Shown here: positions 27,103 through 62,953 of the stretch, piece by piece
How positions within the stretch are numbered: position 1 is the stretch's first letter
How the letters are laid out: each line of letters begins with the position of its first letter
The notes under the pieces: generated by a model
What the model was told of the DNA's origin: nothing
What the model saw: only the letters and a program-made list of their open reading frames with translations
Databases searched by the model: none
Assembly: GCA_026400645.1 (NCBI GenBank)
Contig: JAPLOP010000027.1
Location: 1-64,000 of the forward strand
Length of the DNA stretch: 64,000 bases
Direction: 5' to 3'
From: Alphaproteobacteria bacterium
Lineage (GTDB): Bacteria; Pseudomonadota; Alphaproteobacteria; Paracaedibacterales; CAIULA01
Program-made: the position numbers and the translations under genes

Positions 27103-27119
27103 GTGCGATATAAGAATCC

Positions 27120-36370: not shown

Positions 36371-36523
36371 TATATAGTGTTTTTCTACGTGATCAATAGA
36401 GAGATAGATTTCTGGATGGCCACACTCTCTTCGTTCGTTCGCCATGACGTCATGGCGAGGCCCGGCGTGGCCATCCAGAAATCTATCCTGTTGTCTATTG
36501 ACTTTGCAGGAAAATACTATATA
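36371..36523. repeat. Composite inverted-repeat element, full copy (locus E)
   Basis: 153 bp with terminal arms TATATAGTGTTTTTC and GAAAATACTATATA, then inner arms GATTTCTGGATGGCCAC / GTGGCCATCCAGAAATC, a near-perfect inverted repeat throughout. The outermost bases differ from the usual ATACCATTTTCA ends. It separates convergent lpxI and terC; the terC stop lies at its right end. Confidence 0.85.
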
Positions 36524-43176: not shown

Positions 43177-43334
43177 ACCATTTTCAATAAATCTTCATGA
43201 GTATTTCCCTACTAAGGCCGATAATATCATTTTCAAAAAGGATTAGTGGGTTTCCTGGATGGCCACGCTCCCCTCGTTCGCTCGCCATGCCGTACGTCAT
43301 TGTGCGAAGAGCGCAGCCCGATGCGGCCATCCAG
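43177..43334. repeat. Composite inverted-repeat element, rearranged double copy (locus F)
   Basis: Two left ends in a row: a type 1 end (ACCATTTTCAATAAATC, TTCATGAGT) at 43177, then a type 2 end (ATCATTTTCAAAAAGGATTA, TTTCCTGGATGGCCACG) at 43227. The inner palindrome closes with GGCCATCCAG at 43325-43334 but no right terminal repeat follows. It lies between convergent pnp and hflX. Confidence 0.7.
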
Positions 43335-43337
43335 ACT

Positions 43338-44672
43338 TTAAAATACCAGAGCCGATGCAATCTCGCACAGTTGTCGATGCTCGTCAGGGCTCAGTTTTAA
43401 TGTCAGATGAATCATTCCATCCTGGTCGTGGCGGCTTAAAATAACCCCATGGCGATAGCACCATGCCAGGACATCCCCTTGGTCGCTGGTGATCTCCACC
43501 TGGATAACATCCTTGTCCCGATTCAAGGTTTGCGAAATCATTCCCAGTAGATTCAAAATCCCATCGCCTGTTTTGGCAGAAATGGCGACGCTATTTTTTT
43601 GACGGGCTATGCGGTTAATTAGGGTGTCTTTATCCTCCTCCGTTAGCAGGTCAATTTTATTGTAAACATGGATGATCGGTATGGCATCGGGCGCGCCTTC
43701 TTGATGAATATCCAAAATGTCATATAACACAGATTCAACATCATGGGACTGAACATCCCGGTCCACATGGGCACTGTCATGGATATGCAGAATCAGATCG
43801 GCGGTTCGAACTTCTTCAAGTGTGGCTCTAAACGCTGCAACCAGTTGTGTTGGTAGGTTCGATATAAACCCCACCGTGTCAGAAAAAACAACCTCGCGGC
43901 CGCTGGGCAGTTTTGTTGTCCGCATGGTTGGATCCAGTGTTGCGAACAAAAGGTCCTCCGCAAAGACGCTGGATTCCGTTATCAAATTAAACAGCGTCGA
44001 TTTGCCGGCATTGGTATACCCAACCAACGCAATCACCGGTGTTGAATAGCGTTGGCGTGCCGCGCGATGAAGGCCCCTGGTGCGTTTGATTGTTTCCAGA
44101 TCTTTTTCCAATTTGAGGATCCGCGTGTCAATCATACGGCGGTCAAGCTCTAGCTGAGATTCCCCCGGTCCCCCGATAAAGCCAAAGCCGCCCCTCTGCC
44201 GTTCGAGGTGGGTCCAGGACCGAACCAGCCGGCTGCGCTGATGATTCAGGGCGGCCAGCTCAACCTGCAATCGCCCCTCTGCCGTGCGGGCGCGTTCCCC
44301 AAAAATTTCCAGGATCAACCCCGTACGGTCGATGACCTTGCATTGCCAGGCACGTTCCAGGTTGCGTTGTTGGATGGATGATAGATTTGCATCAACAATC
44401 ACCAATTCTAGGCCCAGATTGTTGATGCTTTGTTTAATGGTGTCGACGTTCCCACGACCCATCAGGGTTGCCGCTGAAACCGCATTGAGATTGATGATTT
44501 GCTGGTATAGCACATTCAGGTTGATGGCCTGGGCCAGGCCGACGGCTTCCTCCAGGGATGCTTCCTGGGTCCGCTTGGGGATGGTTTTGTCCTCTGGCTT
44601 TCGGATATGGACATGAATCACGCCCGTTGATAAACCATTGGTTGTAGACGGCCTTGATGGTGAGTGTGTCAT
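43338..44672 (-). CDS. hflX: GTPase HflX
   Basis: Ribosome-associated GTPase that can split stalled or inactive 70S. About 444 aa from the ATG at 44672 (the frame is open a further 37 codons, unlike HflX). The N-terminal domain has LMGRGNVDTIKQ, then GGPGESQLELDRRMI; the G domain has G1 GYTNAGKSTLFN, G2 ATLDPTMR, G3 SDTVGFISNLP and G4 YNKIDLL. It lies downstream of mfd. Its stop codon is 4 nt from the truncated edge of element F. Confidence 0.96.
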   Translation of the reverse strand: MTHSPSRPSTTNGLSTGVIHVHIRKPEDKTIPKRTQEASLEEAVGLAQAINLNVLYQQIINLNAVSAATLMGRGNVDTIKQSINNLGLELVIVDANLSSIQQRNLERAWQCKVIDRTGLILEIFGERARTAEGRLQVELAALNHQRSRLVRSWTHLERQRGGFGFIGGPGESQLELDRRMIDTRILKLEKDLETIKRTRGLHRAARQRYSTPVIALVGYTNAGKSTLFNLITESSVFAEDLLFATLDPTMRTTKLPSGREVVFSDTVGFISNLPTQLVAAFRATLEEVRTADLILHIHDSAHVDRDVQSHDVESVLYDILDIHQEGAPDAIPIIHVYNKIDLLTEEDKDTLINRIARQKNSVAISAKTGDGILNLLGMISQTLNRDKDVIQVEITSDQGDVLAWCYRHGVILSRHDQDGMIHLTLKLSPDEHRQLCEIASALVF

Positions 44673-44779
44673 TGTGTTTGTGTCCAAAAACGGCAACCGA
44701 GTTAAAGAAATGCTAGTCCGTTCCAAAGGAGAAGTCAACGCAACCGTACCGTGCAGGTTCACGCAGGGCATCAGAAAAA

Positions 44780-44802
44780 TCAAGCAGAAAAAACTGCTTA
44801 AG
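44780..44802 (-). terminator. Possible terminator at the end of mfd
   Basis: On the minus strand AAGCAG and CTGCTT form a 6-bp stem around a loop of six T, followed by GATTTTTCT. It overlaps the mfd stop region; short but well placed. Confidence 0.35.
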
Positions 44803-47800
44803 TTCCACCCTTCTCCGCCAACACAACCAAATTCTTGACAATTTGTTTTGTCCCCCGCAATCGCTGGTCCATACTGGTCCAGTCGCGCATAAAGACTAAC
44901 TTTTGGTCGGGGCGGATTTTAGAATGCCCGGCCTTGTTGGTTTCTGGACTTTGCAAAAACAAAAGCAAACCCCGGTGATTACGGAATTGATTATTCCGAA
45001 AGGTAACCACAACCCCCTTGGGGCCAACATCTAATTTTTCGATCCCAGCACGACGGCAGAAATTTTTAAGCTCGACCACATCGAACAAATTATTAACCTC
45101 CGATGGAAGGGGGCCAAATCGATCGATCATCTCGGCGGCAAATTCATCGATTTCACGGCGTGTTTCAAGGTGGGCAATCCGCCGGTACAACGCAAGCCTC
45201 AACCCAAGATCGCTGACGTAAACTTCTGGAATTAATACTGACGTGCCAAGATTCAGCTGTGGCGTCCATTCATAATCGATTGACTTGCCGTCAGCCTGAT
45301 CCGCCTGTTCCGCGCGGGCCATGATGATCGCTTCTTGTAACAAATGTTGATACAGCTCGACACCGACTTCGCGAATATGGCCGGATTGTTCTTCGCCCAC
45401 GATGTTGCCTGCACCGCGGATATCCATGTCGTGACTGGCCAATTTGAATCCAGCACCCAATGTGTCCAGGCTTTGCATGACCTGCAATCGTTTTTGGGCT
45501 GTTGCCGAAATAGCTTGGTCCGCGGGCAATGTTAGGTATGCGTATCCTTGAGTTTTCGATCGCCCAACTCTGCCTCGCAATTGATATAGCTGCGCCAGAC
45601 CGAATAAATCTGATCTGTGGATAATCAACGTATTCGCCGTTGGAATATCGATACCCGATTCAATGATATTGGTGCTAAGCAGCAAATCATATTCGCGATC
45701 ATAAAAGGCTGTCATCACGGCCTCTAGCTCCGCCGGGGGCATTTGACCATGTGCCATGATAAAGCGAATTTCCGGAACAATGGTCACCAGTTGTTCCGAC
45801 AGGGTTTTCAGATCCTCTATCCTTGGGGAAACATAAAATATCTGGCCGCCACGGTGGTATTCACGCAAAATCGCTTCTCGTTGGACAACTGCATCGAATG
45901 GCATCACAAACGTACGAACGGCCAACCGGTCAATTGGCGGGGTCGTAATCAGGCTTAGTTCTCGAACGCCGCTTAGCGCTAGCTGCAACGTGCGTGGAAT
46001 TGGCGTTGCCGTCATTGTTAAAACATGCACATCCGTTTTCAAGGTTTTCAGACGTTCCTTTTGTTTGACGCCAAAGTGCTGTTCCTCGTCAACGATCAAT
46101 AATCCAAGATCGGTAAATTTAGTTTTGTCCGACAAAATCGCCGATGTTGCAACGATAATATCAACTTTGCCATCGGCCATGTCCTTTCGAATCAGGGTTG
46201 CATCCTTGGGTTTGACCAATCTGGAAAGCTGTTCCACTTTGTACGGCAATCCATGGAATCGCTGGCGAAAGGTATGAAAATGCTGGCGACATAACAGCGT
46301 CGTTGGAACAATAACCGCCACCTGCTTTCCATTGGCCACACATAAATACGCCGCCCGCAACGCGACCTCTGTTTTGCCAAAACCAACATCCCCGCAAATC
46401 AAACGATCCATCGGCTTGCCGGATGCCAAATCATCCAGCGTTTCTTCGATAGCCCGCAGCTGATCCTCAGTTTCCGCATAGGGAAAGCGTGCACAAAAAT
46501 CATCATATTCCTGCGTCGTTTTTTCCAATATATCAGCATGATGCAACGTTCGTTCTGCCGCCAATCGAATCAGATAATCCGCAACCTCGCGAATGCGTTT
46601 TTTGACCTTTGCTTTTCGATGCTGCCATGCGTTTGATCCCAACCGATCCAATTGCACTGACGATGAATCGTTCCCATATCGGGAAATCGCATCGATATTT
46701 TCAACGGGCAGAAAAAGTTTGTCCCCACCATCAAACGCGATGCACAGACAATCATGGGCCACACGTTCCACCTGAACTGTTTCCAGCCCCTTGTATTGCC
46801 CCACACCATGTTCACGATGGACAATATAATCATTCACGGCGATTTGGCTGGCTTCATCAAAAAACGCGTCTGACTTTCGTTTCTTTTTAAGGGTACGTGC
46901 GACCCGATCGCCCAGAATATCCTGTTCGGTTAAGACCAACCAGGCGGGCGTCAAAAAACCATGCTCAAGCGGCATGGTCAGGGAATAAATTGATTTGGTA
47001 TTGGCGTTAGTCCGTGGAAACGCATTGACCGGCAGGATTCGTTGGATACCCTGATCACGCAGAATCTGTTCCAATCGCCCCCGGGATCCATCCGTATAAC
47101 TCGTTAAAATAACTGTGCGGTTGGATTGTTGGTGATCCGCGATTGTATCCTTGACCGTATCAAAAAGTTTGTCCCGCTGTGATTGACGAATCGCTGTAAA
47201 ATCAGGCGCCAGCCGTCCACCATAATCCGTTGCATCGGGCGAAACATAAGGTGATAAAAAAAATCCCCGGGCAGTTAGCGCGCCCCATTCGTCAGTTGTC
47301 CAATACAAAAGCTCTGGCAAGATGGGGCGATAGGATCCACCGGCGTTTTTTCCGATCGGCTGAAGACGTGCTCGGTAATAGTCGCGAATGAGGGCTTGTC
47401 GGCTTTGAAAAGCTTGCTCGATGGTGTCATCATAAACGGGGACAAAGTCTTCTAGGTAATCCAACAAGGATTCTGTTTCGGGATAAAAAAGCGGCAGCCA
47501 ATGTTCCATCCCCGCATAGGATCGGCCGGCAGAAATCGCCTCGTAAAGGGGATCGGATTGTGCCTCGAATAATTCCCGATACTGATGGCGAAATTGATTC
47601 TGAGACGCTTCGGTCAAAAGAATTTCATGAACGGGTTTTAGATCGATTTTATTAATCGTTCCAATCGTTCGTTGGTCCAGGGGATCAAATTGCCGCAACG
47701 TTTCAACCGTATCGCCAAAAAAATCGATTCGCACAGGAAATTCAACCCCTGTCGGAAATAGATCCATCAGGCTGCCGCGAATCGCATAATCCCCCGGTTC

Positions 47801-48328
47801 ATAAACGGATTCTCGGCGGTTATATCCTTTATCGGCAAGATAGGTTAACAATTGGTCACGGCTGACCTTTTGCCCAACCTGAATATCCAATGATTCACCA
47901 AGGAATGATAATCGAGGGGGCAAACGCTGAGCCAGGGCAGAAACGCTGGTGATGACGATAGCGGGTTGGTTTTGGTCCAGCAAAGCCGTCAGCGTCGCCA
48001 ATCGCGCCGTCACAATATCCAGACTTGGCGAAATGCGATCATACGGCAAACAATCCCATGCAGGGAATATCAAAACAGGAATGGTTGGGTCAATGACCGA
48101 CACTTGTTGTTTGAGGGTTTCCAGGCGATCGTCTGTTGCCGAAACGAAAAGAAGATTTTTTTTATTTTGCTTAAATAGGTTGGCAATAACAAAGGACTGG
48201 TATCCTTGGGGAATGCCGCCTAGTATCTGGTTTAAGCTTTCTGGCTTGCCAGCATTTGTCTTTATTTGGGATGATGATTTTAGGCCAAACACCGCTAACG
48301 GACCCCTTTCCTTATTCTGTACAAACAC
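44798..48328 (-). CDS. mfd: Transcription-repair coupling factor Mfd
   Basis: Translocase that removes stalled RNA polymerase and recruits UvrA. About 1176 aa from a GTG at 48328; the open frame goes on to 48577, but that extra part does not look like Mfd and overlaps the divergent GDPD gene. In order: UvrB-like N-terminal part (FPAWDCLPYDRISPS), RNA polymerase-interacting domain (VNDYIVHREHGVGQYKG), translocase motor with Walker A ICGDVGFGKTEVALRAA, DEEQ box LLIVDEEQHFGVKQKE, TMTATPIPRTLQ, then LRGRVGRSKTQGYAYL, and the C-terminal TRCF domain. The start codon is uncertain. Confidence 0.95.
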   Translation of the reverse strand: MFVQNKERGPLAVFGLKSSSQIKTNAGKPESLNQILGGIPQGYQSFVIANLFKQNKKNLLFVSATDDRLETLKQQVSVIDPTIPVLIFPAWDCLPYDRISPSLDIVTARLATLTALLDQNQPAIVITSVSALAQRLPPRLSFLGESLDIQVGQKVSRDQLLTYLADKGYNRRESVYEPGDYAIRGSLMDLFPTGVEFPVRIDFFGDTVETLRQFDPLDQRTIGTINKIDLKPVHEILLTEASQNQFRHQYRELFEAQSDPLYEAISAGRSYAGMEHWLPLFYPETESLLDYLEDFVPVYDDTIEQAFQSRQALIRDYYRARLQPIGKNAGGSYRPILPELLYWTTDEWGALTARGFFLSPYVSPDATDYGGRLAPDFTAIRQSQRDKLFDTVKDTIADHQQSNRTVILTSYTDGSRGRLEQILRDQGIQRILPVNAFPRTNANTKSIYSLTMPLEHGFLTPAWLVLTEQDILGDRVARTLKKKRKSDAFFDEASQIAVNDYIVHREHGVGQYKGLETVQVERVAHDCLCIAFDGGDKLFLPVENIDAISRYGNDSSSVQLDRLGSNAWQHRKAKVKKRIREVADYLIRLAAERTLHHADILEKTTQEYDDFCARFPYAETEDQLRAIEETLDDLASGKPMDRLICGDVGFGKTEVALRAAYLCVANGKQVAVIVPTTLLCRQHFHTFRQRFHGLPYKVEQLSRLVKPKDATLIRKDMADGKVDIIVATSAILSDKTKFTDLGLLIVDEEQHFGVKQKERLKTLKTDVHVLTMTATPIPRTLQLALSGVRELSLITTPPIDRLAVRTFVMPFDAVVQREAILREYHRGGQIFYVSPRIEDLKTLSEQLVTIVPEIRFIMAHGQMPPAELEAVMTAFYDREYDLLLSTNIIESGIDIPTANTLIIHRSDLFGLAQLYQLRGRVGRSKTQGYAYLTLPADQAISATAQKRLQVMQSLDTLGAGFKLASHDMDIRGAGNIVGEEQSGHIREVGVELYQHLLQEAIIMARAEQADQADGKSIDYEWTPQLNLGTSVLIPEVYVSDLGLRLALYRRIAHLETRREIDEFAAEMIDRFGPLPSEVNNLFDVVELKNFCRRAGIEKLDVGPKGVVVTFRNNQFRNHRGLLLFLQSPETNKAGHSKIRPDQKLVFMRDWTSMDQRLRGTKQIVKNLVVLAEKGGT

Positions 48329-48412
48329 CTTAATGGAACGGTAAGATATCAACAAGGGAAATAGGCTGAGGCAGTTCCCTATACCCAATCTAAACAGAAA
48401 TGTTGAAATTTT

Positions 48413-49210
48413 ATGACAGATAGTCTTTTTCCACGGGTTATTGCCCATCGGGGGATTGTTTCCGGAAATTATGCCGGCAATAGCCATAGAGCAATCGAGG
48501 AGGCTTTGAATTCCCCAGTTGAGGGGATAGAGGTCGATGTTCGACTTTCCAAAGACGGCATTCCGTTTATCTTTCATGATGGGTTGCTTGAAAATTCAAC
48601 CAATGGCACAGGAAGGCCAGAGGATAAAACGTGGCACCAGCTAAAGGAAATCGAATACACGCAGAATCCCGATCATCATTCGACACTTATCTTGTTGGAG
48701 GATGTTTTGAAAATGGTAGGTTCCCATAAATTCCTTTTTCTTCATGCAAAGGATAGGGGAGGGTTTGGGCGCCCCCTTGCGCACGGGATTGTTCGTTTGA
48801 TTGAAAAATATCACTTACAAAAAAGCATCATTATTGAATCGTTTAATCCGTTTTTCTTGAGGGTTGTGCGGCTTAAATCCAAGGATATCACGATTCTGTA
48901 TGACTTTAAAATAGACACAAAATCAGCACAGGAAGAGGCGCATCCCGATCGAATCCCCTGGGCATTTAAGCAGCCCTTTATTCAAAAACAAATCGTGCGG
49001 CTTTTGCGTCCCGATCTTTTGGGTCCCCATTGGGGTATTGGGCATGATCTTTTGGCCCATTTTGTGCGCCATAATTATCCCATGATGTGTTGGACAGTGG
49101 ATGATAGTGTGGTTGCAGAACGGCTTTTTTCTGCAGGGATCATGGGTGTTAAAAGTGATTGTCCCTTGAAAATAATGGAAATCTTTATCACAAGACACGC
49201 CCCATATTAA
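48413..49210 (+). CDS. Glycerophosphodiester phosphodiesterase family protein
   Basis: 265 aa, GDPD fold. Catalytic marks are VIAHRGIVSGNYAGNS (His-Arg), EGIEVDVRLSKDGIPFIFHD with metal-binding Glu/Asp and the second catalytic His, and the C-terminal CWTVDDSVVAERLFSAGIMG. No signal peptide is seen, so it is likely cytoplasmic, with glycerophosphodiesters as expected substrates. Divergent from mfd. Confidence 0.9.
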   Translation: MTDSLFPRVIAHRGIVSGNYAGNSHRAIEEALNSPVEGIEVDVRLSKDGIPFIFHDGLLENSTNGTGRPEDKTWHQLKEIEYTQNPDHHSTLILLEDVLKMVGSHKFLFLHAKDRGGFGRPLAHGIVRLIEKYHLQKSIIIESFNPFFLRVVRLKSKDITILYDFKIDTKSAQEEAHPDRIPWAFKQPFIQKQIVRLLRPDLLGPHWGIGHDLLAHFVRHNYPMMCWTVDDSVVAERLFSAGIMGVKSDCPLKIMEIFITRHAPY

Positions 49211-49341
49211 TCATCCGCACAATAAGGATTAAAAAATAGCTATCAATCAAAAGTTCTGCTAAAGATAGAATCACGGACTTTTAAAAAGATACGCTCTGGT
49301 TGTCTCGACAGAGACCGTTTGGAACAAATATTAAGGATACT

Positions 49342-50895
49342 ATGGAATTTCAGAAATTAGGGCTGTCACCGTTATTGTGTGAATCAGTCAGGGGCTTTGG
49401 ATATACGCAACCAACACCGATTCAAGAACAAGCCATTCCATATGTATTGCGTGGACAAGATGTTCTGGGGTGTGCACAAACCGGCACCGGAAAGACAGCC
49501 TCTTTTTTATTGCCCCTGATCCAATTATTGTTGGAATCACCAGGCCGGGCACGGTTGTCAAGGGCCGTGATTTTAGAACCGACCCGGGAATTAGCAACCC
49601 AAGTATTGGATAATTTTAAAAATTATTGCAAAAATATCCCCCTGTCAGCTGTGCTTTTGGTTGGCGGAGAATCTTTTTCGGATCAAGAAAAAGCCCTGCA
49701 ACAAGGGGCGGATGTTTTAATTGCAACCCCTGGGCGTTTGTTGGATTTGATTAACCGGGGCAAAATCATGATGATTGGCACAAAATATGCCGTCATTGAC
49801 GAAGCCGATCGCATGCTGGATATGGGATTTATTCCTGATGTGGATCGTATTTTGGCAGGGCTTTCACCACAACGGCAGACCCTTTTGTTTAGTGCCACGC
49901 TTTCCCCGGAAATCAGGAAACTTGCAAACACGTATTTGGTGAATCCACAGGAAATAACCGTGGCGCCGACCGTCCGGACAGCCATAACCATTCAACAGTT
50001 TAGCGTTTCTTTGCCCACGAAGCAAAAACCCCAAGCCGTGCAGGCATTGTTAAAAAAGTATGGAAAAGGGATTTCCAGTCTGATTTTTTGCAATCGCAAA
50101 CGCGATATTTCGATTCTTGTGACCACATTAAAACGGTATGGCTTTAAGGTGGAGGCGCTTCATGGCGACCTGTCACAAAGCACACGTAACCAGGCCTTGG
50201 CTAGCCTCAAGCAAAAGGATTTGGATGTCCTGGTTGCCAGTGACGTTGCAGCCAGAGGATTAGATATCGAGGATCTGGATATCGTCATCAATTACGATGT
50301 GCCCATTAACGTCGAAGATTATGTGCATCGCATTGGTCGAACAGGGCGCGCCGGCCAACAGGGGCAGGCCTTTACATTGGTTAGCGATCCCGAGAAAAAA
50401 CAATGGGCCGCGATTGAAACATTTACCCATCAAAAGATTGATGAATATGTGCTGGTTCTGGAGGACGAGGAGCCTAAAAAAGAAAAACGGGGGCCGCAGC
50501 CCAAAAAGGAAACCGCTAGAGCAAAAAGCGAAGAACCCGCACTTGTTACGGATGATTCTGCACATTTGCCATCCTCTGATTCTGTGCCTTTTCTACCCTC
50601 TAATTCTGCACATTTGTCATCCTCGGGCTCGACCCGAGGATCTCCGAAAAATCGCAAAGACCTTCGGCCGCGGGGGGATGTTGATGTGGCAGAGAAGGCC
50701 ACCCAAACCGCTGCACCCACCCCCAGAGCTAGAACGCCCTATGTTCGGCACAATACACCATTCGAGGACAGATCAGTTATTGGATTTGGCGAGCATCTTC
50801 CTGATTTTATGGCACGGCCTGTCCCGCTGTTAAACTTATCACAAGGGCTGGATTTGCCCCAAGAAGATGAAGATTTATGTGCTCCTCTCGCATGA
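49342..50895 (+). CDS. DEAD-box RNA helicase, RhlE-like, with repeat-derived C-terminal tail
   Basis: About 517 aa from the ATG at 49342 (AAGGATACT just upstream). Q motif GYTQPTPIQ, motif I AQTGTGKT (45-52), Ia PTRELA, II DEAD (153-156), III SAT (184-186), VI HRIGRTGRAGQ. The unstructured tail after residue 370 is basic and then holds three 8-residue units (DSAHLPSS, DSVPFLPS, NSAHLSSS; residues about 405-428) encoded by 24-bp tandem repeats, directly joined to a CTCGA-loop hairpin of repeat family 2 (50614-50641) read in frame as SSGSTRGS. The catalytic core is intact. Confidence 0.95.
   Translation: MEFQKLGLSPLLCESVRGFGYTQPTPIQEQAIPYVLRGQDVLGCAQTGTGKTASFLLPLIQLLLESPGRARLSRAVILEPTRELATQVLDNFKNYCKNIPLSAVLLVGGESFSDQEKALQQGADVLIATPGRLLDLINRGKIMMIGTKYAVIDEADRMLDMGFIPDVDRILAGLSPQRQTLLFSATLSPEIRKLANTYLVNPQEITVAPTVRTAITIQQFSVSLPTKQKPQAVQALLKKYGKGISSLIFCNRKRDISILVTTLKRYGFKVEALHGDLSQSTRNQALASLKQKDLDVLVASDVAARGLDIEDLDIVINYDVPINVEDYVHRIGRTGRAGQQGQAFTLVSDPEKKQWAAIETFTHQKIDEYVLVLEDEEPKKEKRGPQPKKETARAKSEEPALVTDDSAHLPSSDSVPFLPSNSAHLSSSGSTRGSPKNRKDLRPRGDVDVAEKATQTAAPTPRARTPYVRHNTPFEDRSVIGFGEHLPDFMARPVPLLNLSQGLDLPQEDEDLCAPLA
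50554..50625 (+). repeat. Three 24-bp in-frame tandem repeats in the helicase gene
   Basis: Units at 50554-50577, 50578-50601 and 50602-50625 each follow the pattern (G/A)ATTCTG..., ending in a CCATCCTCT-like or CTACCCTCT-like segment. The third runs into the family 2 hairpin, whose first bases (TGTCATCCTCG) resemble the ends of the units. Confidence 0.75.
50614..50641 (+). repeat. Family 2 hairpin repeat inside a coding sequence
   Basis: ATCCTCGGG (50619-50627) and CCCGAGGAT (50633-50641) form a perfect 9-bp stem around CTCGA. With the preceding TGTC it matches, inverted and with one base changed, the intergenic unit at 51065-51092. It is read in frame by the helicase gene. Confidence 0.8.
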
Positions 50896-50902
50896 TTTCC
50901 TA

Positions 50903-51049
50903 ATACCATTTTCATGAATTATGGATTAGTGTTTCCTGGATGGCCACACTCTCTTCGTTCGTTCGCCATGACGTCATGGCGAGGAGGGCGAAGCCCGACG
51001 TGGCCATCCAGGGCCTGAACGATTGATTGATTATTCATGAAAATGGTAT
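50903..51049. repeat. Composite inverted-repeat element, best full copy (locus G)
   Basis: 147 bp with a perfect 16-bp terminal inverted repeat (ATACCATTTTCATGAA at 50903-50918; TTCATGAAAATGGTAT at 51034-51049). Inside, CCTGGATGGCCAC and GTGGCCATCCAGG are a second inverted pair around a centre with CGCCATGACGTCATGGCG, itself palindromic. There is no coding sequence and no transposase nearby. Lies between the helicase gene and plsC. Confidence 0.9.
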
Positions 51050-51064
51050 AAGTAAAACACACAG

Positions 51065-51092
51065 ATCCTCGGGTCAAGCCCGAGGATGACAA
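51065..51092. repeat. Family 2 hairpin repeat, intergenic
   Basis: ATCCTCGGG, loop TCAAG, CCCGAGGAT, then GACA: the inverted, near-identical mate of the unit inside the helicase gene about 450 bp away. Just downstream of element G. Confidence 0.8.
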
Positions 51093-51156
51093 ACAGGGTG
51101 TTTCCCCGGAAAATCATCTAGAATATACTATATAAACACAAAGGAATTATAAAAAA

Positions 51157-51873
51157 ATGATTTTGCTGATGCGTTCGCTTTTGTTTTATTTTTTAGTTTT
51201 TTTATTTGTGACTATTCCTTATTTTTTAATAATTCCGCTTACTTGCATTTTCCCACGTGCATTTACGTTGCGTATTAATAGTTTATGGTGCAAATCGGCC
51301 CTGTTTCTTTTGCGATTCTGTATTGGCCTTGGCTATGAAATTCGCGGGCGCGAAAACCTGGACAAGTTATTGGAAAGTGGTCGTTTTATTATTGCCAGCC
51401 AGCATCAGTCAGCGTGGGATGCCATGTTCTTCCCATCGGTTTTAAAAACTTATCGGGCCATTATCAAAAAAGCTCTTCTATTCATCCCTGTATTTGGTTG
51501 GTATTTTTACAAAGCTGATTTTATCGCAATCGACAGAAGTGCGGGCATCAAGTCCATCAAAAAACTGCTAACTGATGGGAAAAAGTCAATGAAGGAAGGG
51601 GTTCCGATTTTCATGTTCCCAGAGGGGACCCGAACTGAATTTGGCGCCGATGTTCCCTATCAGCCGGGTATTGCGGCGCTTTACAAGGGGCTTGATGTGC
51701 CGATACTGCCTGTTGCCTTGAATTCGGGGCTATTTTGGAAACGTCGGGGGATTATTAAATATCCCGGGACCGTCATCGTTCATTTCCTGGAACCCATTCA
51801 GCCAGGCCTTTCCAAGGAAGTGTTCATGACGACGTTAAAGAATCGCATTAACGAAGGGGCGGCGACGCTTTAA
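51157..51873 (+). CDS. plsC: 1-acyl-sn-glycerol-3-phosphate acyltransferase
   Basis: Makes phosphatidic acid from lysophosphatidic acid at the inner membrane. 238 aa with an N-terminal membrane helix (LLFYFLVFLFVTIPYFLIIP). Acyltransferase motifs are the HX4D block SQHQSAWDAMFFPS, FIAIDRSAG, and FPEGTRTEFG. Its stop codon overlaps the flgH stop on the other strand within TTTAAA. Confidence 0.93.
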   Translation: MILLMRSLLFYFLVFLFVTIPYFLIIPLTCIFPRAFTLRINSLWCKSALFLLRFCIGLGYEIRGRENLDKLLESGRFIIASQHQSAWDAMFFPSVLKTYRAIIKKALLFIPVFGWYFYKADFIAIDRSAGIKSIKKLLTDGKKSMKEGVPIFMFPEGTRTEFGADVPYQPGIAALYKGLDVPILPVALNSGLFWKRRGIIKYPGTVIVHFLEPIQPGLSKEVFMTTLKNRINEGAATL

Positions 51874-52652
51874 AACGGCATCACCTTGTTCAGGACCTGC
51901 TGCCCCCAGGGGAAAGCCTGCATGTCTGTTAGCTCTCCGCGGCCGCCATAGGATATGCGCAGTTCGGAAATTTTTTCCCCTTGGATTGTATTGGATGATG
52001 CGATGTCTTCGCGTCTGATGATACCCAGAACCTGAACCTCGCGCACTTCGTTCACCAGGCGGATTTCTTGTCGACCCTGGATCACCATGTTTCCATTGGG
52101 CAATATTTGGATAATGCTTGCGGCAACCTTAAAATTCATTTTGTCCGCAACATTGTATTTTGCTGATCCTGTAAGGGATGGGTTGCTGTTAAAATTAAGC
52201 CAGTTGGGATTTGCTACGCCTGGCGCGCCTTGTTGTTTTTTGGGAAGCATTTTTAGCGCTTGTGTTTCAAGGCCCAAAGCATTCGTCACGGTCGTGTTGC
52301 CAGATGTTGTCCGTTGAATATTCGGGGTCATTTCAATAGATTCTTTTTGATCAATATTAACCAACACAGTCACAATATCGCCGACTTTATTGGCGCGCTG
52401 ATCTTTAAAAAACGCCCTGGATCCGGTTTCCCATAATGAATTTTGCCCGCGCCCTGGCAACAGTGTTGGCTGCGGCATTGGCATAGAAATCGGCTGGTAT
52501 CCCGAAACTCGTGTTGGATCCTGTATTTGGCTAAGCGGCGGTGGATCGCCCACTGTGGATAATTGTTCCGCCAGGTTGCACCCGGACAGGAGGATCGTCA
52601 TGAGGCATAGCGATGACAAATGCGAAAAATTATGTAAAAAAAATACACTCAT
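51870..52652 (-). CDS. flgH: Flagellar L-ring protein FlgH
   Basis: Outer-membrane lipoprotein that forms the L-ring bushing of the flagellum. 260 aa, normal for FlgH. The lipobox is LLSGC (Cys about 25). Further marks are SLWETGSRAFFKDQRANKVGDIVTV and the C-terminal NTIQGEKISELRISYGGRG and ELTDMQAFPWGQQVLNKVMPF. The gene overlaps flgA by 4 bp (ATGA). Confidence 0.96.
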   Translation of the reverse strand: MSVFFLHNFSHLSSLCLMTILLSGCNLAEQLSTVGDPPPLSQIQDPTRVSGYQPISMPMPQPTLLPGRGQNSLWETGSRAFFKDQRANKVGDIVTVLVNIDQKESIEMTPNIQRTTSGNTTVTNALGLETQALKMLPKKQQGAPGVANPNWLNFNSNPSLTGSAKYNVADKMNFKVAASIIQILPNGNMVIQGRQEIRLVNEVREVQVLGIIRREDIASSNTIQGEKISELRISYGGRGELTDMQAFPWGQQVLNKVMPF

Positions 52653-53377
52653 CCGATCCTCCCGATTTCTGCTTGATTGGGGCCTGTAATTTTTGCTTGA
52701 ATCGTTTTCTTTATGACTGGGCCTGATCCGTCCTTGGATGACGATGTTTCAAGCATTATGCTCTCGCCAAAGCTGCCGTTGGACAACGCGGTCGCTTGGG
52801 TTGTGATCACCATGGATGGGCTTTTGTAGCTAATCTGAACCCCATCACCCTTTTTTACGATCAGGGGAGATTGCAAATCCGAACGATTAACAGGCGATCC
52901 GATTTTAATGGGGGTATGTTTTGATGTTTTGCCCAATAGCTCCTCCTTTTTTGTGACGGTGCTTGGGGATAATTTGTCGGCCGGAAATTTTTGCCATCCA
53001 ATGTCAGATTCAGAAATAATATCACTTTTCGCAATGGGATTTTTTAAAACAGGAATTTCAATAAGCCATTCAATCTTACCAAGAATTTTTCGTGGTGGAT
53101 TGCTGCCAATTATCACGTTGGCGCTAAATTGTCGCTGGTCTGTTTGTATCGACAATTGCTGAATGACGATTGAATCGGCACCTTCCCCCTCCTTTAGGTT
53201 TCCCCATTGATCGATCCAATGATCGATATGAATTTGAAATTCCTGGGCAATGACTTCTTGGGAAATGGCGGATTTTAGATGACCAATAATCGTATCCTTG
53301 GTGATGCGTGGCATGGGCTGCGCCTCGCAATCCACAAACAAACAAAGAAAAAAGAAAAACACCCTAAAGAAAGTCAT
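52649..53377 (-). CDS. flgA: Flagellar P-ring assembly chaperone FlgA
   Basis: Periplasmic chaperone for P-ring (FlgI) assembly. 242 aa with a signal peptide (FFRVFFFFLCLFVDCEAQP). The SAF-domain marks are IAKSDIISESDIGWQKFPADKL and the C-terminal NRSDLQSPLIVKKGDGVQISYK. It starts 2 nt after flgG and overlaps flgH, so the four genes form a tight operon. Confidence 0.93.
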   Translation of the reverse strand: MTFFRVFFFFLCLFVDCEAQPMPRITKDTIIGHLKSAISQEVIAQEFQIHIDHWIDQWGNLKEGEGADSIVIQQLSIQTDQRQFSANVIIGSNPPRKILGKIEWLIEIPVLKNPIAKSDIISESDIGWQKFPADKLSPSTVTKKEELLGKTSKHTPIKIGSPVNRSDLQSPLIVKKGDGVQISYKSPSMVITTQATALSNGSFGESIMLETSSSKDGSGPVIKKTIQAKITGPNQAEIGRIG

Positions 53378-53379
53378 GA

Positions 53380-54183
53380 TTAGCGTCCTATTTGATTGGC
53401 TTTTTCGAGCATGGCATCGCCGGTTTTTAAAACCTTTGTCAGCATTTCATAAATTTTTTCAATCTTGATCAGGTCGGTGATTTCCTCGACAGCGTTGACG
53501 TTGGATCCTTCGCGCCATCCTTGTTTGATCATGCCGCGGCGATTGGATCCGGGTGGCCCTTTGTCCGGTGTCCCTGATGCGGATGTTTGTTGGAACATGC
53601 TGTCGCCTATGGCCTTTAATCCTGCTGGGTTAAAGAATGTGGATAGCTCAATCTGCCCAACAAGCTGATCCGTTGTTTGCCCTTGGGTTTGAACGTAAAC
53701 CTGGCCAAACTGATTGATAGAAACAGACAATGTATTGGCCGGCAATGTGATCCCCGGTGCCACAACATATCCCGTTTTTGGCATTACAAGCGTGTTCGAG
53801 GCGTTCAATTGCAGCGCCCCAACGCGCGTATAGGATGTGGTGCCATCGGGCATGTTAACCTCAAAAAAACCATCCCCTTCGATCATAAGGTCCAATGGAT
53901 TGTTAGTCTGAACGGGGGTTCCCTGGTCAAAAATACGATAAATGCCGCCAGCCTGAACGCCCAAACCAACCTGGAGCCCCGTTGGGGAAATGCTGCCGTT
54001 ATCTGATGTTGGTGAACCAACGCCCCCCAAATCCTGGTAAGGCAAATCATAGGCAACCAGATATTGTCGTTTATATCCGTCGGCGCCTTGTGCTGCAATG
54101 TTTTGTGCCTTGATCGACAAATTCATTTCCTGAAGTTGTAGGCCTGTGCGTGTGATATTGAACGCGTTGATAACTGAAGCCAT
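53380..54183 (-). CDS. flgG: Flagellar distal rod protein FlgG
   Basis: Forms the distal rod. 267 aa, typical. GLGVQAGGIYRIFDQGTP, PLDLMIEGDGFFEVNMPDG and the C-terminal EGSNVNAVEEITDLIKIEKIYE match FlgG. The usual N-terminal rod motif (ANNIANVNTTGYK-like) is replaced by KAQNIAAQGADGYKRQ, a divergent form. Transcribed after flgF. Confidence 0.94.
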   Translation of the reverse strand: MASVINAFNITRTGLQLQEMNLSIKAQNIAAQGADGYKRQYLVAYDLPYQDLGGVGSPTSDNGSISPTGLQVGLGVQAGGIYRIFDQGTPVQTNNPLDLMIEGDGFFEVNMPDGTTSYTRVGALQLNASNTLVMPKTGYVVAPGITLPANTLSVSINQFGQVYVQTQGQTTDQLVGQIELSTFFNPAGLKAIGDSMFQQTSASGTPDKGPPGSNRRGMIKQGWREGSNVNAVEEITDLIKIEKIYEMLTKVLKTGDAMLEKANQIGR

Positions 54184-54211
54184 GATTTTGTTTCCTGGTT
54201 ATTTTTTATTT

Positions 54212-54964
54212 TTAGGCATTTTGTGGGGATGCATTGATCATCTTTTTTTGAAGCTGTTCGAACTCATCAATGACTTTTTGGGCGTTTTCAAAAAGACGTA
54301 ATAATTCCAGCATCCGCATACTTTCGACCATGGGAGAAACGTTGGAGCTTTCCAATGATCCCTGCACAATATGGGGCGCATGGGATGGCTGTGCATCGGC
54401 TGAGGTTTTAAAAAGCGAAAGCCCTTCGCTGACCAACGCTTGTTCATCATCGAATTCAACAACCCCTATTTTCCCCAAAATCGTATTGTTGCTGGAAAGC
54501 GTTCCATCCTGGGCAATACTGATATTTTTAAGCGACCCTGGAAGTAATATCTCGCTTCCGCCGGCACTTAACACGGGATGGCCCGCGGTTGTGATCAATT
54601 TACCATCGGTATCAGTCAGGAATTCGCCATTACGGGTGTATCGTGTCCCTTGGGGCGTGTTTACGATGAAATATCCGTTCCCAACAAGGGCAGCATGCAG
54701 GGGTGCCCCTGTATTCATCAGGGATCCATTGGTTGTGTCCCTGACCAGGGCCGCCGTCTTGACGTAAGAAATATCTTTATTGTCTTTTGTTTTGTAGACG
54801 ACTTCTTCTGTGCTGAGGCTGAATGATTGAAAGCCATTTGTCGTCGCGTTAGCCAAATTATTGGCGACGGTATTAAGCTTTAATATCTGCGCTTCCTGCA
54901 TTGACAGCATTATGGCAGTCGGCTTGAACACCGCGACATTGCTTTTGTATTGAACTTCGGCCAT
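54212..54964 (-). CDS. flgF: Flagellar proximal rod protein FlgF
   Basis: Proximal rod subunit, 250 aa. It keeps the classic motif LNTVANNLANATTNGFQS near the N terminus, then ALVGNGYFIVNTPQGTRYTRNGEF (described in parts: GYFIVNTPQG, YTRNGEF) and the C-terminal NVSPMVESMRMLELLRLFEN. It is first in flgF-flgG-flgA-flgH, an order common in Alphaproteobacteria. Confidence 0.94.
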   Translation of the reverse strand: MAEVQYKSNVAVFKPTAIMLSMQEAQILKLNTVANNLANATTNGFQSFSLSTEEVVYKTKDNKDISYVKTAALVRDTTNGSLMNTGAPLHAALVGNGYFIVNTPQGTRYTRNGEFLTDTDGKLITTAGHPVLSAGGSEILLPGSLKNISIAQDGTLSSNNTILGKIGVVEFDDEQALVSEGLSLFKTSADAQPSHAPHIVQGSLESSNVSPMVESMRMLELLRLFENAQKVIDEFEQLQKKMINASPQNA

Positions 54965-55029
54965 TTTTCACAAGGATGTTTAGAATCTTTGTTCTTATGG
55001 ATGCATGAATCGTGCCAAAGTATTTTTGT

Positions 55030-55764
55030 TTATCGGGGATGCATGATCCTGGCTTCCCTCAAATGATGATCCGCATCCAATTGAAGCACGCCCAGGTCTG
55101 GATTAAGCGATGCAAGCCGCAGGTAATGGCAAGCCTTTTTGGTATCGATTTTTGTCCCCTGGCCAGTTTTAAACATAATTCCCGCATTAAACTGGGCAGA
55201 ACCGCATCCCAGCTGGGCGGATTTTATGTAAAATTCAAGGGCCAGTTGCTCATCTTTTTTCACGCCGTGTCCAACCAAATAACTGTCGGCCAGGTCTTTC
55301 CATGCCAATGCGGATCCAAATTCACCGGCTCGTTTGAAATAATAATTGGCCAGATAATAACTTTTTCCAAGGCCGCAATATCCATTAAGGTACATAATGC
55401 CCAGCATGTGGAGCCCATCAGCATTATCAAAACGTTCCAGATGGCGCAGAAAAATCACGACATCCTTGTTATCATTTTGCACGTGATGAATCACATACTG
55501 TTCGACGTTCGCAAAACAGCTCGATGTTTTAAATAGCAGAAACAGAACGACGGGAATATAGCAGTTAAGGATTATTTTAATCTGAGTTCGGCGTAAGAGT
55601 GATATCAAAACAAGACCCACCGTAGTCTTCCTCCGGCTTGACCGGAGGATCCAGCTTATAATGATCGCTTTTTTTCTCTGGATCCTATGGTCAAGCCATA
55701 GGAAGACTCGCTTTTGTCTGGGTTTTATTAGCTTTTTACGTCGAATTGGGATTATTTTAGTCAC
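55030..55764 (-). CDS. Sel1-like repeat protein with a palindromic element in its 5' end
   Basis: 244 aa if read from the GTG at 55764, which has AAGGA upstream. The C-terminal two thirds are Sel1-like helical repeats (GLHMLGIMYLNGYCGLGKSY, AWKDLADSYLVGHGVKKDE, AQFNAGIMFKTGQGTKID), a fold that often mediates protein-protein contacts, including at host interfaces. A hydrophobic signal-like segment (NCYIPVVLFLLFKTSSCFA) is preceded by about 28 residues encoded by the family 2 element at 55624-55708. Alternatively the gene starts at the in-frame GTG at 55620, for which the element itself supplies GGAGG 9 nt upstream. Which is used cannot be told. Confidence 0.75.
   Translation of the reverse strand: MTKIIPIRRKKLIKPRQKRVFLWLDHRIQRKKAIIISWILRSSRRKTTVGLVLISLLRRTQIKIILNCYIPVVLFLLFKTSSCFANVEQYVIHHVQNDNKDVVIFLRHLERFDNADGLHMLGIMYLNGYCGLGKSYYLANYYFKRAGEFGSALAWKDLADSYLVGHGVKKDEQLALEFYIKSAQLGCGSAQFNAGIMFKTGQGTKIDTKKACHYLRLASLNPDLGVLQLDADHHLREARIMHPR
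55624..55708. repeat. Family 2 double-hairpin element inside the Sel1 gene
   Basis: 85 bp with outer arms AGTCTTCC / GGAAGACT. Each half is a hairpin: TCCTCCGG-CTTGA-CCGGAGGA and TCCTATGG-TCAAG-CCATAGGA; inner GGATCCAG / CTGGATCC also pair. No stop codons arise in the Sel1 frame. Confidence 0.85.
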
Positions 55765-55792
55765 CTGATGTCCTTATGCATGGGGAATGCTT

Positions 55793-56218
55793 CTATTCAT
55801 AAAGATCGATCACAAATTTACGCTTGACAAGGACGCTTGCATTTGGAACCCGGTTAGCTGCAACAGAAGCGCCACTATTTTCAGTCACCACTGGTACGGC
55901 ATGTTGAAAATCTGCCTCTTGGCTTGATAATAAGCTGGATACAGATTCTTGGGGGATCTCTGGGACAATCTCGTTTACAGATACATTCAATGAAGAGCTG
56001 TTTGCAATGGCATCATTATTGCTGGTGGCATTTTCCGCATCATAGTCCAAAATGGGCGTACTTGCAGACTCCCTCTCGTGTGTTTGATTTGGACTTGTGC
56101 TCGGATTATTGTTGATAGAATCTAATTCATAGTCTGCAACAGGTGTGTTGGCTGCAAATCCGATTCCATATAGAATAAGCTGAAAGCCTAGCGCGCGCAC
56201 TAAAGAAGAAAACAACAT
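55793..56218 (-). CDS. Secreted Asn/Ser-rich protein of unknown function
   Basis: 141 aa. The N terminus looks like a signal peptide (SSLVRALGFQLILYGIGFAA). The mature part is acidic, rich in Asn and Ser, and probably disordered, with a repeated phrase: TPVADYELDSINNNP and TPILDYDAENATSNN. No family is recognised. It is next to the Sel1-like gene on the same strand, 28 nt upstream, so the two may be expressed together; a shared export or host-related role is speculation. Confidence 0.6.
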   Translation of the reverse strand: MLFSSLVRALGFQLILYGIGFAANTPVADYELDSINNNPSTSPNQTHERESASTPILDYDAENATSNNDAIANSSSLNVSVNEIVPEIPQESVSSLLSSQEADFQHAVPVVTENSGASVAANRVPNASVLVKRKFVIDLYE

Positions 56219-56256
56219 ATCGATACTCTTTTACTGTCTAAAAAACTGATATCTAT

Positions 56257-56285
56257 ATGATAGAATCGTTTTTTTAATAAAACAA
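56257..56285 (-). promoter_or_regulatory. Candidate promoter of the Asn/Ser-rich protein gene
   Basis: On the minus strand TTGTTT (56285-56280) and TATCAT (56262-56257) are spaced by 17 bp, about 40 bp before the start codon. The -10 is good and the -35 weak. Confidence 0.3.
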
Positions 56286-56288
56286 TCG

Positions 56289-57821
56289 TTAAGAATGTCC
56301 GACAACCATTTTTGATTGAACCTGCGCATAGGCATCCAATGCTTTTTTATCTTTTGTCAGTAATGATACGATAATCCCAATAATAAATGATGCAGGTATT
56401 GTCAAGATTGCTGGGCTTTTGAGTGGGAAAATCGCAGTAGAGCAATGAAACACATCAACCATAACAGTTGGTGACAGAACAATCAGCAGTACGCTGCCAA
56501 GTGTTCCGAATACCATGCTGGCAACGGCCCCCTGGGTTGTGTGACGGCGCCAATACAGGCACAAAATCAATGCGGGGAATGTGGCGCTGCCTGCAATCGC
56601 AAAGGCAAGCCCAACCAACACAGTGACGTTTTGTCCCTGAAAAGCGATGCCCAATATGACGGACAGGATTCCAAGGCCAACCGTTGTTATGCGGGCAACC
56701 AGCAATTGTTCCTTTGATGAAACGGGGCCCTTTCTGATAACGCCAACCCACAGATCATGTGATATTGCAGCTGCACCCGACAACGTTAATCCCGCAACAA
56801 CGGCCAGGATTGTCGAAAACGTCACGGCGGCGATAAAGCCCAATAGGGGGGTTCCGCCAGTGACCTCTGCCAACAAAAGCGCCGAAACATTGCCGCCCTT
56901 ATCCAGGGATCGGATTGTTTCTTGCCCCACAAGGACAAGTGCCCCAAATCCCATAATAATAACGAACAGGTAAAAAATGCCAATCACTGTGGTGGCGTAA
57001 AAAACGGACATTCTGGCAGCCTTTGGATTGGCAACCGTATAAAAGCGCATCAATAAATGGGGCAGGCCAACAGTCCCGAACATAAAGGCGATTCCAACGG
57101 AAACAGCCTCCCACGGATTTAAATAAAGATTACCGGGTCTTAACAGGGAATCCCCATAAATGACGCCGACCTCTTTAAACAATAAAAGCGGATTAAAATC
57201 AAATTCGGACAACACCAGGACAACAAGTATCGCGGACCCTATGAGCAACAAAACGGCTTTTATGATTTGGACCCAGGTTGTGGCCAGCATGCCGCCAAAC
57301 AAAACGTATCCAATCATGACTGTCCCAACCAAGATTTCAGCCAGCAGATAATCAATGCCAAAAATAAGCTTGATCAAGGTTCCGGCCCCAACCATTTGTG
57401 TAATCATGTAAAAAATAATAATGACAAGGCTACTGATCGAGGAGGCCGTCCGAATCGGTTTTTCCGAAAAGCGTGTAATCAGGGCATCTGTAAATGTATA
57501 TTTCCCAAGGTTCCGAAGGGGTTCAGCAACCAAGAAAAGCAACAATGGCCAGCCCATCAACCCGCCAACGATGTAAATAAAGGAATCAAATCCACAAAGG
57601 ACGATCAGTCCCGTGAATCCCAAAAAGCTGGACGCGCTGATAAAATCACCCGCCAAAGCCAGTCCATTTTGAAATCCGGTAATATTGCCACCGGCTGAGA
57701 AAAATTCGTCAGTCGTTTTTGTTTTTTTGGCCGCCCAATATGTGATAAAGCCACTTAATATAATAAAGAGCAGAAAAAGAGCAATGGAAAAGCTATCGGG
57801 GTTGCCAACTTGTGAACGCAT
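56289..57821 (-). CDS. actP: Sodium:solute symporter, acetate permease ActP-like
   Basis: 510 aa, about 13 membrane helices. The SSS-family signature is seen in FFSAGGNITGFQNGLALAGD and SASSFLGFTGLI, then GTVGLPHLLMRFYTV and the VAGLTLSGAAAISHDLW block typical of ActP. It follows a DUF485 gene by 3 nt, the known yjcH-actP arrangement. It would import acetate or a similar short carboxylate with Na+; the substrate is inferred from the family. Confidence 0.9.
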   Translation of the reverse strand: MRSQVGNPDSFSIALFLLFIILSGFITYWAAKKTKTTDEFFSAGGNITGFQNGLALAGDFISASSFLGFTGLIVLCGFDSFIYIVGGLMGWPLLLFLVAEPLRNLGKYTFTDALITRFSEKPIRTASSISSLVIIIFYMITQMVGAGTLIKLIFGIDYLLAEILVGTVMIGYVLFGGMLATTWVQIIKAVLLLIGSAILVVLVLSEFDFNPLLLFKEVGVIYGDSLLRPGNLYLNPWEAVSVGIAFMFGTVGLPHLLMRFYTVANPKAARMSVFYATTVIGIFYLFVIIMGFGALVLVGQETIRSLDKGGNVSALLLAEVTGGTPLLGFIAAVTFSTILAVVAGLTLSGAAAISHDLWVGVIRKGPVSSKEQLLVARITTVGLGILSVILGIAFQGQNVTVLVGLAFAIAGSATFPALILCLYWRRHTTQGAVASMVFGTLGSVLLIVLSPTVMVDVFHCSTAIFPLKSPAILTIPASFIIGIIVSLLTKDKKALDAYAQVQSKMVVGHS

Positions 57822-57824
57822 GTT

Positions 57825-58136
57825 TTAACCTCTGACCGGTCTTTTTTTTCCTGCTTTTGGCATTTTTTTTGCCTCTAGCAAGAATTTTGATAACTTATCT
57901 TGAAATGCATTGGCCCACAAAGCATAGGCCAGCGTTAATATCATGGCGAAAACAATAACGCCAACTCCCCAAATAATGCCAACGCTTAGGCCGGGAGTGA
58001 TCTGCGTGACGATGATGTCCTTGGAAAAAGCTGCAAAAATCAGAAACGTTACAAATGTACTAATTAATAAGGCTGAAAAAAACAAGGAAACACGTTTCTT
58101 TGTTTTGTAAAACTTAAATGTTTGAAACGTGTTCAT
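57825..58136 (-). CDS. DUF485 membrane protein, YjcH-like
   Basis: 103 aa with two membrane helices (LFFSALLISTFVTFLIFAAF and SVGIIWGVGVIVFAMILTLA), the usual DUF485 topology, and a basic C-terminal tail. DUF485 proteins are encoded just upstream of ActP-type symporters and may be accessory to them; their role is unproven. Confidence 0.88.
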   Translation of the reverse strand: MNTFQTFKFYKTKKRVSLFFSALLISTFVTFLIFAAFSKDIIVTQITPGLSVGIIWGVGVIVFAMILTLAYALWANAFQDKLSKFLLEAKKMPKAGKKRPVRG

Positions 58137-58218
58137 GTGAAATTCTCTTAATTAATTATTATTTTAGCGAAAATTTATTTTATTTTAAACATACCTTTGC
58201 ATCTATGGCAATAGTCTT

Positions 58219-58962
58219 TCAAAAAAATGGAAAATCATCGGGCATGGGTACGGTCGATTGAACCAGGCGCCGACGAATCAAAGGCAAGTCTTTTCCATCA
58301 AACAGATGCTGCCTTAGAAAATATTCTGTCAGGATGTATGCTTTTTGTAATTCTTCTGGCCCGCATGATGCATTGGGATTAACCAAAAAATTGGGCAAAA
58401 GGAAAAGACGATCCTTGTATGGATCCCCAACCGATTTACAGACAGCACGACCGGTTTTTGGCGAAACGTATGCTAAATCATCTGTTGATTGGGTCACAGC
58501 ACAGGCACGTAAATCCAATCCAAATCCCAAAACTGATAGCAATTTAAGCTCGAAAAAAATGTAGTCCTTTTGCCAATGGTCGCCGCACCTTATAAGGGTG
58601 TGCAAAAAATCCTCAAAATACTCATAAAGCTCAGAATAAGGATGGCGTTCAGGCAGGCTTTTATCAAGCAACGCACAGGCCGAGCTGAGCGCCGCCAGGG
58701 AAAGGGGTTTTTTGAAAATTTTTATCCACAAGGATTCAAGGGGGTCAAGTTTCCAGTTTCCCAAATGTTCTGAAAGTCGTGCATTCCAGGTGACTTCTGC
58801 GATTGTGCCAGGCTGTTGGCTTGATTGTGGATTCTGCGATTTGGAACCAAGACGAATCAAGCCATTATGCTTTCCATGTTCCCTGGTGAAAACGGTAACA
58901 ATAGAGCTATGTTCACTGGAAACACGCTGACTTAGAATGATCCCCCGGTCTGTCCATTTCAT
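58219..58962 (-). CDS. recO: DNA repair protein RecO
   Basis: Mediator that loads RecA on SSB-coated DNA. 247 aa. N-terminal OB-fold part WTDRGIILSQRVSSEHSSIVTVFTREHGKHNGLI (seen as DRGIILSQR and TREHGKHNGLIRLG), mid-part YFEDFLHTL and FFELKLLSVLGFGLDLRAC, C-terminal RRRLVQST. The Cys set is partly kept. Divergent from the D,D-carboxypeptidase gene. Confidence 0.93.
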   Translation of the reverse strand: MKWTDRGIILSQRVSSEHSSIVTVFTREHGKHNGLIRLGSKSQNPQSSQQPGTIAEVTWNARLSEHLGNWKLDPLESLWIKIFKKPLSLAALSSACALLDKSLPERHPYSELYEYFEDFLHTLIRCGDHWQKDYIFFELKLLSVLGFGLDLRACAVTQSTDDLAYVSPKTGRAVCKSVGDPYKDRLFLLPNFLVNPNASCGPEELQKAYILTEYFLRQHLFDGKDLPLIRRRLVQSTVPMPDDFPFF

Positions 58963-59093
58963 AGGATTGTCACAAATCTAGATAAGTTTTGTAAAGAATG
59001 ATGGTTTTAGCCCAGAACATCAAGCGGACATTGAAGTCGCGTGGGGATTATTGTATCCTTACCCGAAGTCATTTCCCTAGGTGTTCAATCTGT

Positions 59094-60329: not shown

Positions 60330-60335
60330 GAATAA

Positions 60336-60486
60336 GCCGCTTTCAATAGACCTTCTTGAGTTTGAGCAATTTCTGGATTGCTTCTTCGGGCTTCGCCCTC
60401 ATCGCAATGACGACGTTGTCATGGCGAGCGAACGAAGTGAAGTGTGGCCATCCAGGAAACTCACTGATCATTTATGAAAATGGTAT
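60336..60486. repeat. Composite inverted-repeat element (locus H)
   Basis: Left arm type 1 (TTTCAATAGACCTTCTTGAGTT, in parts TTTCAATAGACC and TTGAGTT, then TTTCTGGATTGC), right arm type 2 (GTGGCCATCCAGG, CACTGATCATTTATGAAAA, TGGTAT). It lies between convergent dacC and hemW; the hemW stop (60472-60474) is inside the right end. Confidence 0.8.
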
Positions 60487-62435: not shown

Positions 62436-62476
62436 GCTGGGCCAGACTTTATTTGTAATGGTGGAGGTATAAACAG

Positions 62477-62953
62477 CTAAACGTATTCAACTGTCTTAAT
62501 CGAATACACCTTGCTGCCATTTGGTGTGGTGACTTCAACGCTATCGCCGGCTTTTTTTGCAATCAAAGCACGCGCCAACGGAGAGGTAATGGATAGAAAG
62601 CCAGTACGTACATCGGCTTCGTCGCTACCAACAATTTGGTAGTGAACAACGTCATTCGTGTCTTCGTCTTTCAAAACGACTGTGGCCCCGAACTTAATGT
62701 CCTCGCCAGATATCTTGCTGACATCGATAACCTCGGCCCGACTTACTTTGTCTTCTAGTTCGCCCAAACGCCCCTCGAGGAAGCTTTGGCGTTCTCTGGC
62801 TGCATGATATTCAGCATTTTCTGACAAATCACCATGTTCACGCGCATCAGAGATAGCCTTAATGACAGAGGGACGCTCCACGCTTTTTAAATGACGCATT
62901 TCTTCTTGGAGTCTCTCGAAGCCTCTTACTGTCATTGGTAACTTTTTTTCCAT
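62477..62953 (-). CDS. greA: Transcription elongation factor GreA
   Basis: Stimulates transcript cleavage in backtracked RNA polymerase. 158 aa from the ATG at 62953 ([19 protein letters not shown]), the usual length; an open frame goes 8 codons further. The coiled-coil tip carries the acidic pair within [20 protein letters not shown], and the C-terminal FKBP-like part ends [16 protein letters not shown]. Confidence 0.97.

Follow-up and report, generated by a model that had tools for sequence, protein, structure and literature searches.

One REP-like hairpin pair inside several unrelated sets of transposon-like ends in an alphaproteobacterial genome

In the genome studied here (1.32 Mb), the same REP-like inverted hairpin pair lies within at least three unrelated pairs of terminal inverted repeats (TIRs), with cores identical to the last base in different shells, with hybrid elements that join arms of two families, and with one shell whose ends are of the IS982 type and some of whose insertions are flanked by target duplications. 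We consider it probable (about 0.68) that these elements are non-autonomous MITEs of 140-190 bp that carry the REP pair as a shared cargo and whose ends, belonging to at least three unrelated families, are exchangeable.

The initial annotation of the window (the whole 64-kb stretch of DNA that was analysed) had described a dispersed family at nine loci, and repeats were indeed present at 9/9 of them. Searching the genome with the 147-bp copy at 50903-51049 returned dozens of relatives, the best at 97% over the full length. The family I end ATACCATTTTCA had 36 exact matches, and 90 with at most one mismatch, while its reversed pattern, used as control, gave 0 forward and 3 reverse matches; a half-core pattern matched 107 times, versus 0 in the control. 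From 106 stretches surrounding hits, to which 20 at TIR III and II hits were added, 76 REP-like hairpin pairs were parsed genome-wide (77 rows, L108 being counted twice), so that element counts rest on these targeted stretches. The density proposed earlier, about one copy per 7 kb, applies to a window that is denser than the genome, in which there is approximately one core pair per 16 kb. A single outer TIR common to the nine loci was not found: families I, II and III, a hybrid and decayed copies all occur in the window, and what the nine loci have in common is the inner core rather than the outer repeat. Rfam had no match in the window. The elements in the window are as follows.

7759-7844: 86-bp type I copy that has lost most of its core, right end exact.
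23490-23625: core pair with an I_T-like right arm and an unrecognised left arm, decayed or internally deleted.
25051-25200: type I with I_T and I_G arms, ATGCCATTTTCA ends and a heterotypic core (25091-25169); overlaps the 3' end of the ORF at 25178-26080 (minus strand).
27096-27262: hybrid of a III_a left arm (IS982-type end 27096-27113) and an I_T right arm, core 27149-27222.
36373-36521: type II, TATAGT(G/A)TTTT(T/C)C ends, core 36412-36478 with an internally deleted right half.
43177-43334: type I, decayed; an I_T arm remnant that lacks a core precedes a type I arm (ATATCATTTTCA at 43224) and core 43255-43334, right arm unrecognised.
50903-51049: type I, arms I_R and I_L, perfect ATACCATTTTCA ends, REP-pair core 50936-51011.
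55579-55753: MITE of the IS982 type (TIR III), with another kind of hairpin core and the 5-bp target duplication ATTTT, absent from the earlier list.
60336-60486: type I, arms I_T (left end degenerate) and I_G (exact end), core 60373-60455; overlaps the 3' end of the ORF at 60472-61620 (minus strand).
63031-63122: core pair 63039-63113 without recognised arms.

The hybrid had previously been placed at 27120-27262, which captures the element and misses its left end. The ORF at 55030-55764 (minus strand) overlaps the element at 55579-55753, and the start predicted for this ORF may fall within that element or past it.

The core consists of two facing hairpin units, CTGGATNGC...GCN'ATGACG followed by CGTCAT...ATCCAG, whose half-cores either meet at GACGTC or have a few additional bases at the junction. 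The inner inverted pair (CTGGATTGC/CTGGATGGC) and the central palindrome (CAATGACG/CCATGACG) of the initial annotation are both present, but they are parts of one hairpin unit rather than separate layers. The variable stem base covaries (T-A 58, G-C 53 and A-T 3, versus T-C 5), in counts that include related copies and represent few independent changes. In heterotypic cores one half is of the T kind and the other of the G kind, so that pairing is kept within the halves and weakened between them. When folding was compared with shuffled sequences, three of four single half-cores did no better than the shuffles (z -0.5 to +0.4) and the fourth was modestly better (z -1.4); the homotypic core at 50936-51011 folded far better (z -5.4) and the heterotypic core at 25091 modestly so (z -1.7). 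Like the CGTC-tagged REPs surveyed by Di Nocera et al. (2013, PMC3733652), the core has the CGTC tag at one end, AT as the first bases of the stem and a CCA tail at the other end, and it forms inverted dimers found at gene 3' ends. Unlike them, its tags point inward with almost no spacer, an arrangement that is rare there; it has a 5-bp stem followed by an internal loop and an inner stem, where CGTC REPs have a stem of 8-9 bp and a loop of 4-5; and its dimers are enclosed in several TIR shells (PMC3733652). Since the stem differs in this way, we call the core REP-like, and at best a divergent member of the CGTC REPs.

Outside the core, three sets of ends were distinguished by aligning the outward arms to eight reference arms, all classified arms scoring above the random-sequence null, whose maximum was 29. 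Family I, with ATACCATTTTCA ends, comprises 22 I/I elements, family II (TATAGTRTTTTYC) 11 II/II elements (12 rows in the parse) and family III (AACCTGAGTTCGACGTAA) 16 III/III elements; eight are hybrids (seven I/III and one I/II), and 19 of the 76 core pairs, about a quarter, have no recognisable arm on one or both sides. Another six half-core stretches, which a pattern search had turned up, were read after this arm count. Pure elements of families II and III always pair an a-type with a b-type end (III_a with III_b in 16/16), and most family I elements pair I_T with I_G or I_L with I_R. With lengths below 300 bp, no coding capacity and TIRs, the elements have the properties of MITEs. No core-less shell of family I or II was found among the loci examined. 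The ends of families I and II contain TA, and no target duplication could be separated from that TA; no empty site came to light for either family. In six stretches (L045, L050, L051, L059, L133 and L135), TIR III abuts TIR I at one or both ends, and some of these elements have two nested ends.

Comparison across families indicated that cores and shells are not tied to each other. The core of the type II element L078 is identical to the type I core at 50936 over 76/76 bp, and so is the core of the III/I element L069 to that of L076 (type II); the arms around these two identical-core pairs are unrelated (identity 0.37-0.51), whereas two type II elements with identical cores had arm identities of 0.95-1.00. 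Moreover, five hybrids (L050, L053, L069, L112 and L129) have one arm attached to a half-core whose best match is with a different family; the remaining three hybrids are ambiguous, since half-cores of the III_b and I_T kinds are similar. Judged by eye, the hybrid joins lie within the first 6-14 bases of the core, so that exchange at the REP edge is a small-sample observation. A second hairpin pair (the CCGGTCAAGCCGG type) is also enclosed by TIR III, including at 55579-55753, and canonical CGTC hairpins such as CGTCATCCCGCGACTTGATCGCGGGATCC form dimers with several different flanking sequences. Exchange between shells and cores may thus be general in this genome. Although the families each possess two distinct ends of their own, as would be expected if three ordinary MITE families had arisen independently and shared their centre through convergence or as a common target, the 76-bp cores identical across families and the hybrids contradict that explanation, which we regard as highly improbable.

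A further element type, with AGTAGTTCAACAAATTT ends, was seen in L048, L101, L125 and L134; in L048 and L101 it encloses canonical CGTC hairpins, and the L101 copy lies within a type I arm.

For family III, the ends could be assigned to a transposon type. TIR III had 15 exact matches in the genome and 62 with at most three mismatches (1 and 1 in the control), and in other genomes the exact motif was present in at least 120 stretches, the matches listed being mostly from Bacteroidota and Cyanobacteria. In both of these groups TIR III bounds or abuts IS982 transposases: L204 has a perfect TIR III pair 1777 bp apart and an IS982 transposase frame (154.9 bits), and in L227 (Leeuwenhoekiella) TIR III lies 95 bp from an IS982 frame (188 bits). 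Because TIR III is shared with these IS982 elements, we classify family III as IS982-type. TIR III mini-elements in other phyla contained no recognisable CGTC pair. Exact 5-bp target duplications flank 5 of 24 TIR III elements (shuffled mean 0.33; 0 of 20,000 shuffles reached 5); among these five, L036 carries the REP pair and the rest the second core type. Insertions were also found nested in one another, a TIR III element lying within a type I element in L071, with GATCT on both sides, and an element with other ends lying within a type I arm in L101. The idea of a MITE-like shell around a REP-like core is therefore supported by the TIRs, the IS982-type ends of family III, the 5-bp duplications, the nested insertions and the absence of a transposase at the elements. 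Its extension, a mobile element with a single outer TIR that had captured a REP-like core, is too simple in view of at least three unrelated TIR shells and of single-arm hybrids.

From these data, we infer mobilisation in trans together with an exchange of arms. The outer repeats would be what a trans-acting transposase recognises, of IS982 type for family III, and the REP pair would ride along and so spread without an enzyme of its own. Arms would be exchanged where the REP pair ends on its outer side, at or very near the CTGGAT/ATCCAG boundary, through recombination or template switching between copies; such an exchange would yield both one core in different shells and single-arm hybrids. 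As a tentative extension, which we hold to be possible though less than even, CGTC REP pairs might be cassettes with defined edges that are passed between unrelated transposon ends and spread by whichever transposases are present.

Alternatively, the REP pair itself might be the mobile unit, a REPIN-like unit mobilised by a RAYT or some other single-strand transposase, and might have inserted repeatedly into pre-existing palindromic MITEs. Consistently with this, the core edges lie at the same CTGGAT/ATCCAG position in every arm family, some core pairs have no recognised arms (for instance L070, L106, L117 and 63039-63113), and single half-cores occur in three relatives (G004, G016 and G028). 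We nevertheless consider it unlikely: the Y1_Tnp domain (PF01797), present in 19/42 genomes of the order, is absent from this genome and also from G016 and G028, which hold half-cores, so that a RAYT/Y1 enzyme was rejected as the mover; the loci examined contained no empty type I or II shell; and insertion does not explain hybrids with two arm types.

Exchange of shells around a shared cargo remains our preferred reading, and sources for the shells were sought in the same genome. A search of this genome for Y1, IS630 and IS982 transposases turned up none with matching ends, and neither did a search of contig ends for insertion sequences with such ends, in an assembly of 42 contigs from which transposon copies may be missing. 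No parental insertion sequence was found for families I and II, and none with the family III ends in this genome. Two candidates were rejected: IS630 (PF13358, DDE_3), considered as partner of the TA-like ends, was not found in the genome, and the genome's IS982, considered as source of TIR III, is a single copy with ACGCAGTGTGCAAGTTT ends, which are not TIR III. By eye, three contig ends have an IS630-type-like start and a different terminus. Also by eye, six contig ends (L335, L341, L350, L351, L354 and L358) carry group II intron-like sequence, and such termini indicate that repeats limit the assembly. Plasmids, phages and viral contigs gave no match. When 42 genomes of the order were searched, the composite pattern of type I matched 24 times in this genome and once in G023, where the match is unlike the element beyond the pattern itself.

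REPs and MITEs generally favour gene 3' ends. In the window, five of eight convergent junctions carry an element versus 5/47 other junctions (Fisher p = 0.003, on a hand-picked gene list); genome-wide, gene orientation around elements is mostly unclear with 350-bp flanks. Both tolerance at gene ends and a function are compatible with the excess. This location, together with the strong folding of the 50936-51011 core, is what would be expected if the elements were old, immobile transcription-end or RNA-stability elements under selection whose copies are kept similar by gene conversion. That explanation appears distinctly improbable to us, given that a scan of 44000-63999 found no intrinsic terminator (hairpin plus T run) inside elements, that family III has moved, as shown by its target duplications and the nested insertions, and that such places are favoured by REPs and MITEs at large.

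Several known systems resemble parts of this arrangement. CGTC-tagged REPs are reported mainly from alphaproteobacteria, with no dedicated transposase; a broad spectrum of transposases was suggested as their movers, and how they spread in the absence of such an enzyme was a question that the 2013 survey did not settle (PMC3733652). In A. variabilis GTAG-15 and H. neapolitanus CGTC-1, as here, a REP dimer is enclosed in a longer palindrome, and REP-free palindromes were not found (PMC3733652); each of those species has one outer palindrome, whereas we observed at least three shells, hybrids, identical cores across shells and one IS982-type shell with target duplications. MITECca01 of Cardinium is likewise a short non-autonomous element with IS982-type ends; its parental IS982 is present, unlike here, and the accessible part of that report notes neither a REP core nor shell exchange (PMC9769881). 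TIMEs are also miniature elements that generate mosaic structures, but they derive from Tn3, and their mosaics arise through cargo gain or from two TIMEs, not from different ends around one core (PMC4133298). As far as the accessible parts of the sources describe them, REPINs and RAYTs share with our elements an inverted REP pair as the repeated unit, and differ in that this genome has no Y1_Tnp (RAYT) and has TIRs outside the repeat (PMC3116915, PMC2817692). A limited search of the open-access literature found no description of several unrelated shells, with hybrids, around a single REP pair. The presence of the same REP pair in at least three transposon shells, one of them IS982-type with duplications, turns the question of CGTC REP spread into a direct mobility test, and suggests a route by which bacterial hairpin repeats of an orphan class can spread with no enzyme of their own. 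It also shows that families of MITEs that are told apart by their ends can hold an interior in common and exchange it, a point of importance for the annotation and classification of miniature elements.

Other repeats were noted in passing. A canonical CGTC REP dimer (CGTCATCCCGCGACTTGATCGCGGGATCC and a partner) lies at 30798-30870, upstream of the ORF at 30933-31811, and a single canonical hairpin of the TGTC/CGTC type lies at 51063-51091, just downstream of the 50903 element, where it was a minus-strand hit in the terminator scan. The type I elements of L088 and L089 lie 2 kb from each other and share their flanks on either side, which corresponds to a local duplication, and a perfect 48-bp tandem duplication occupies 376-471 within the ORF at 276-1013.
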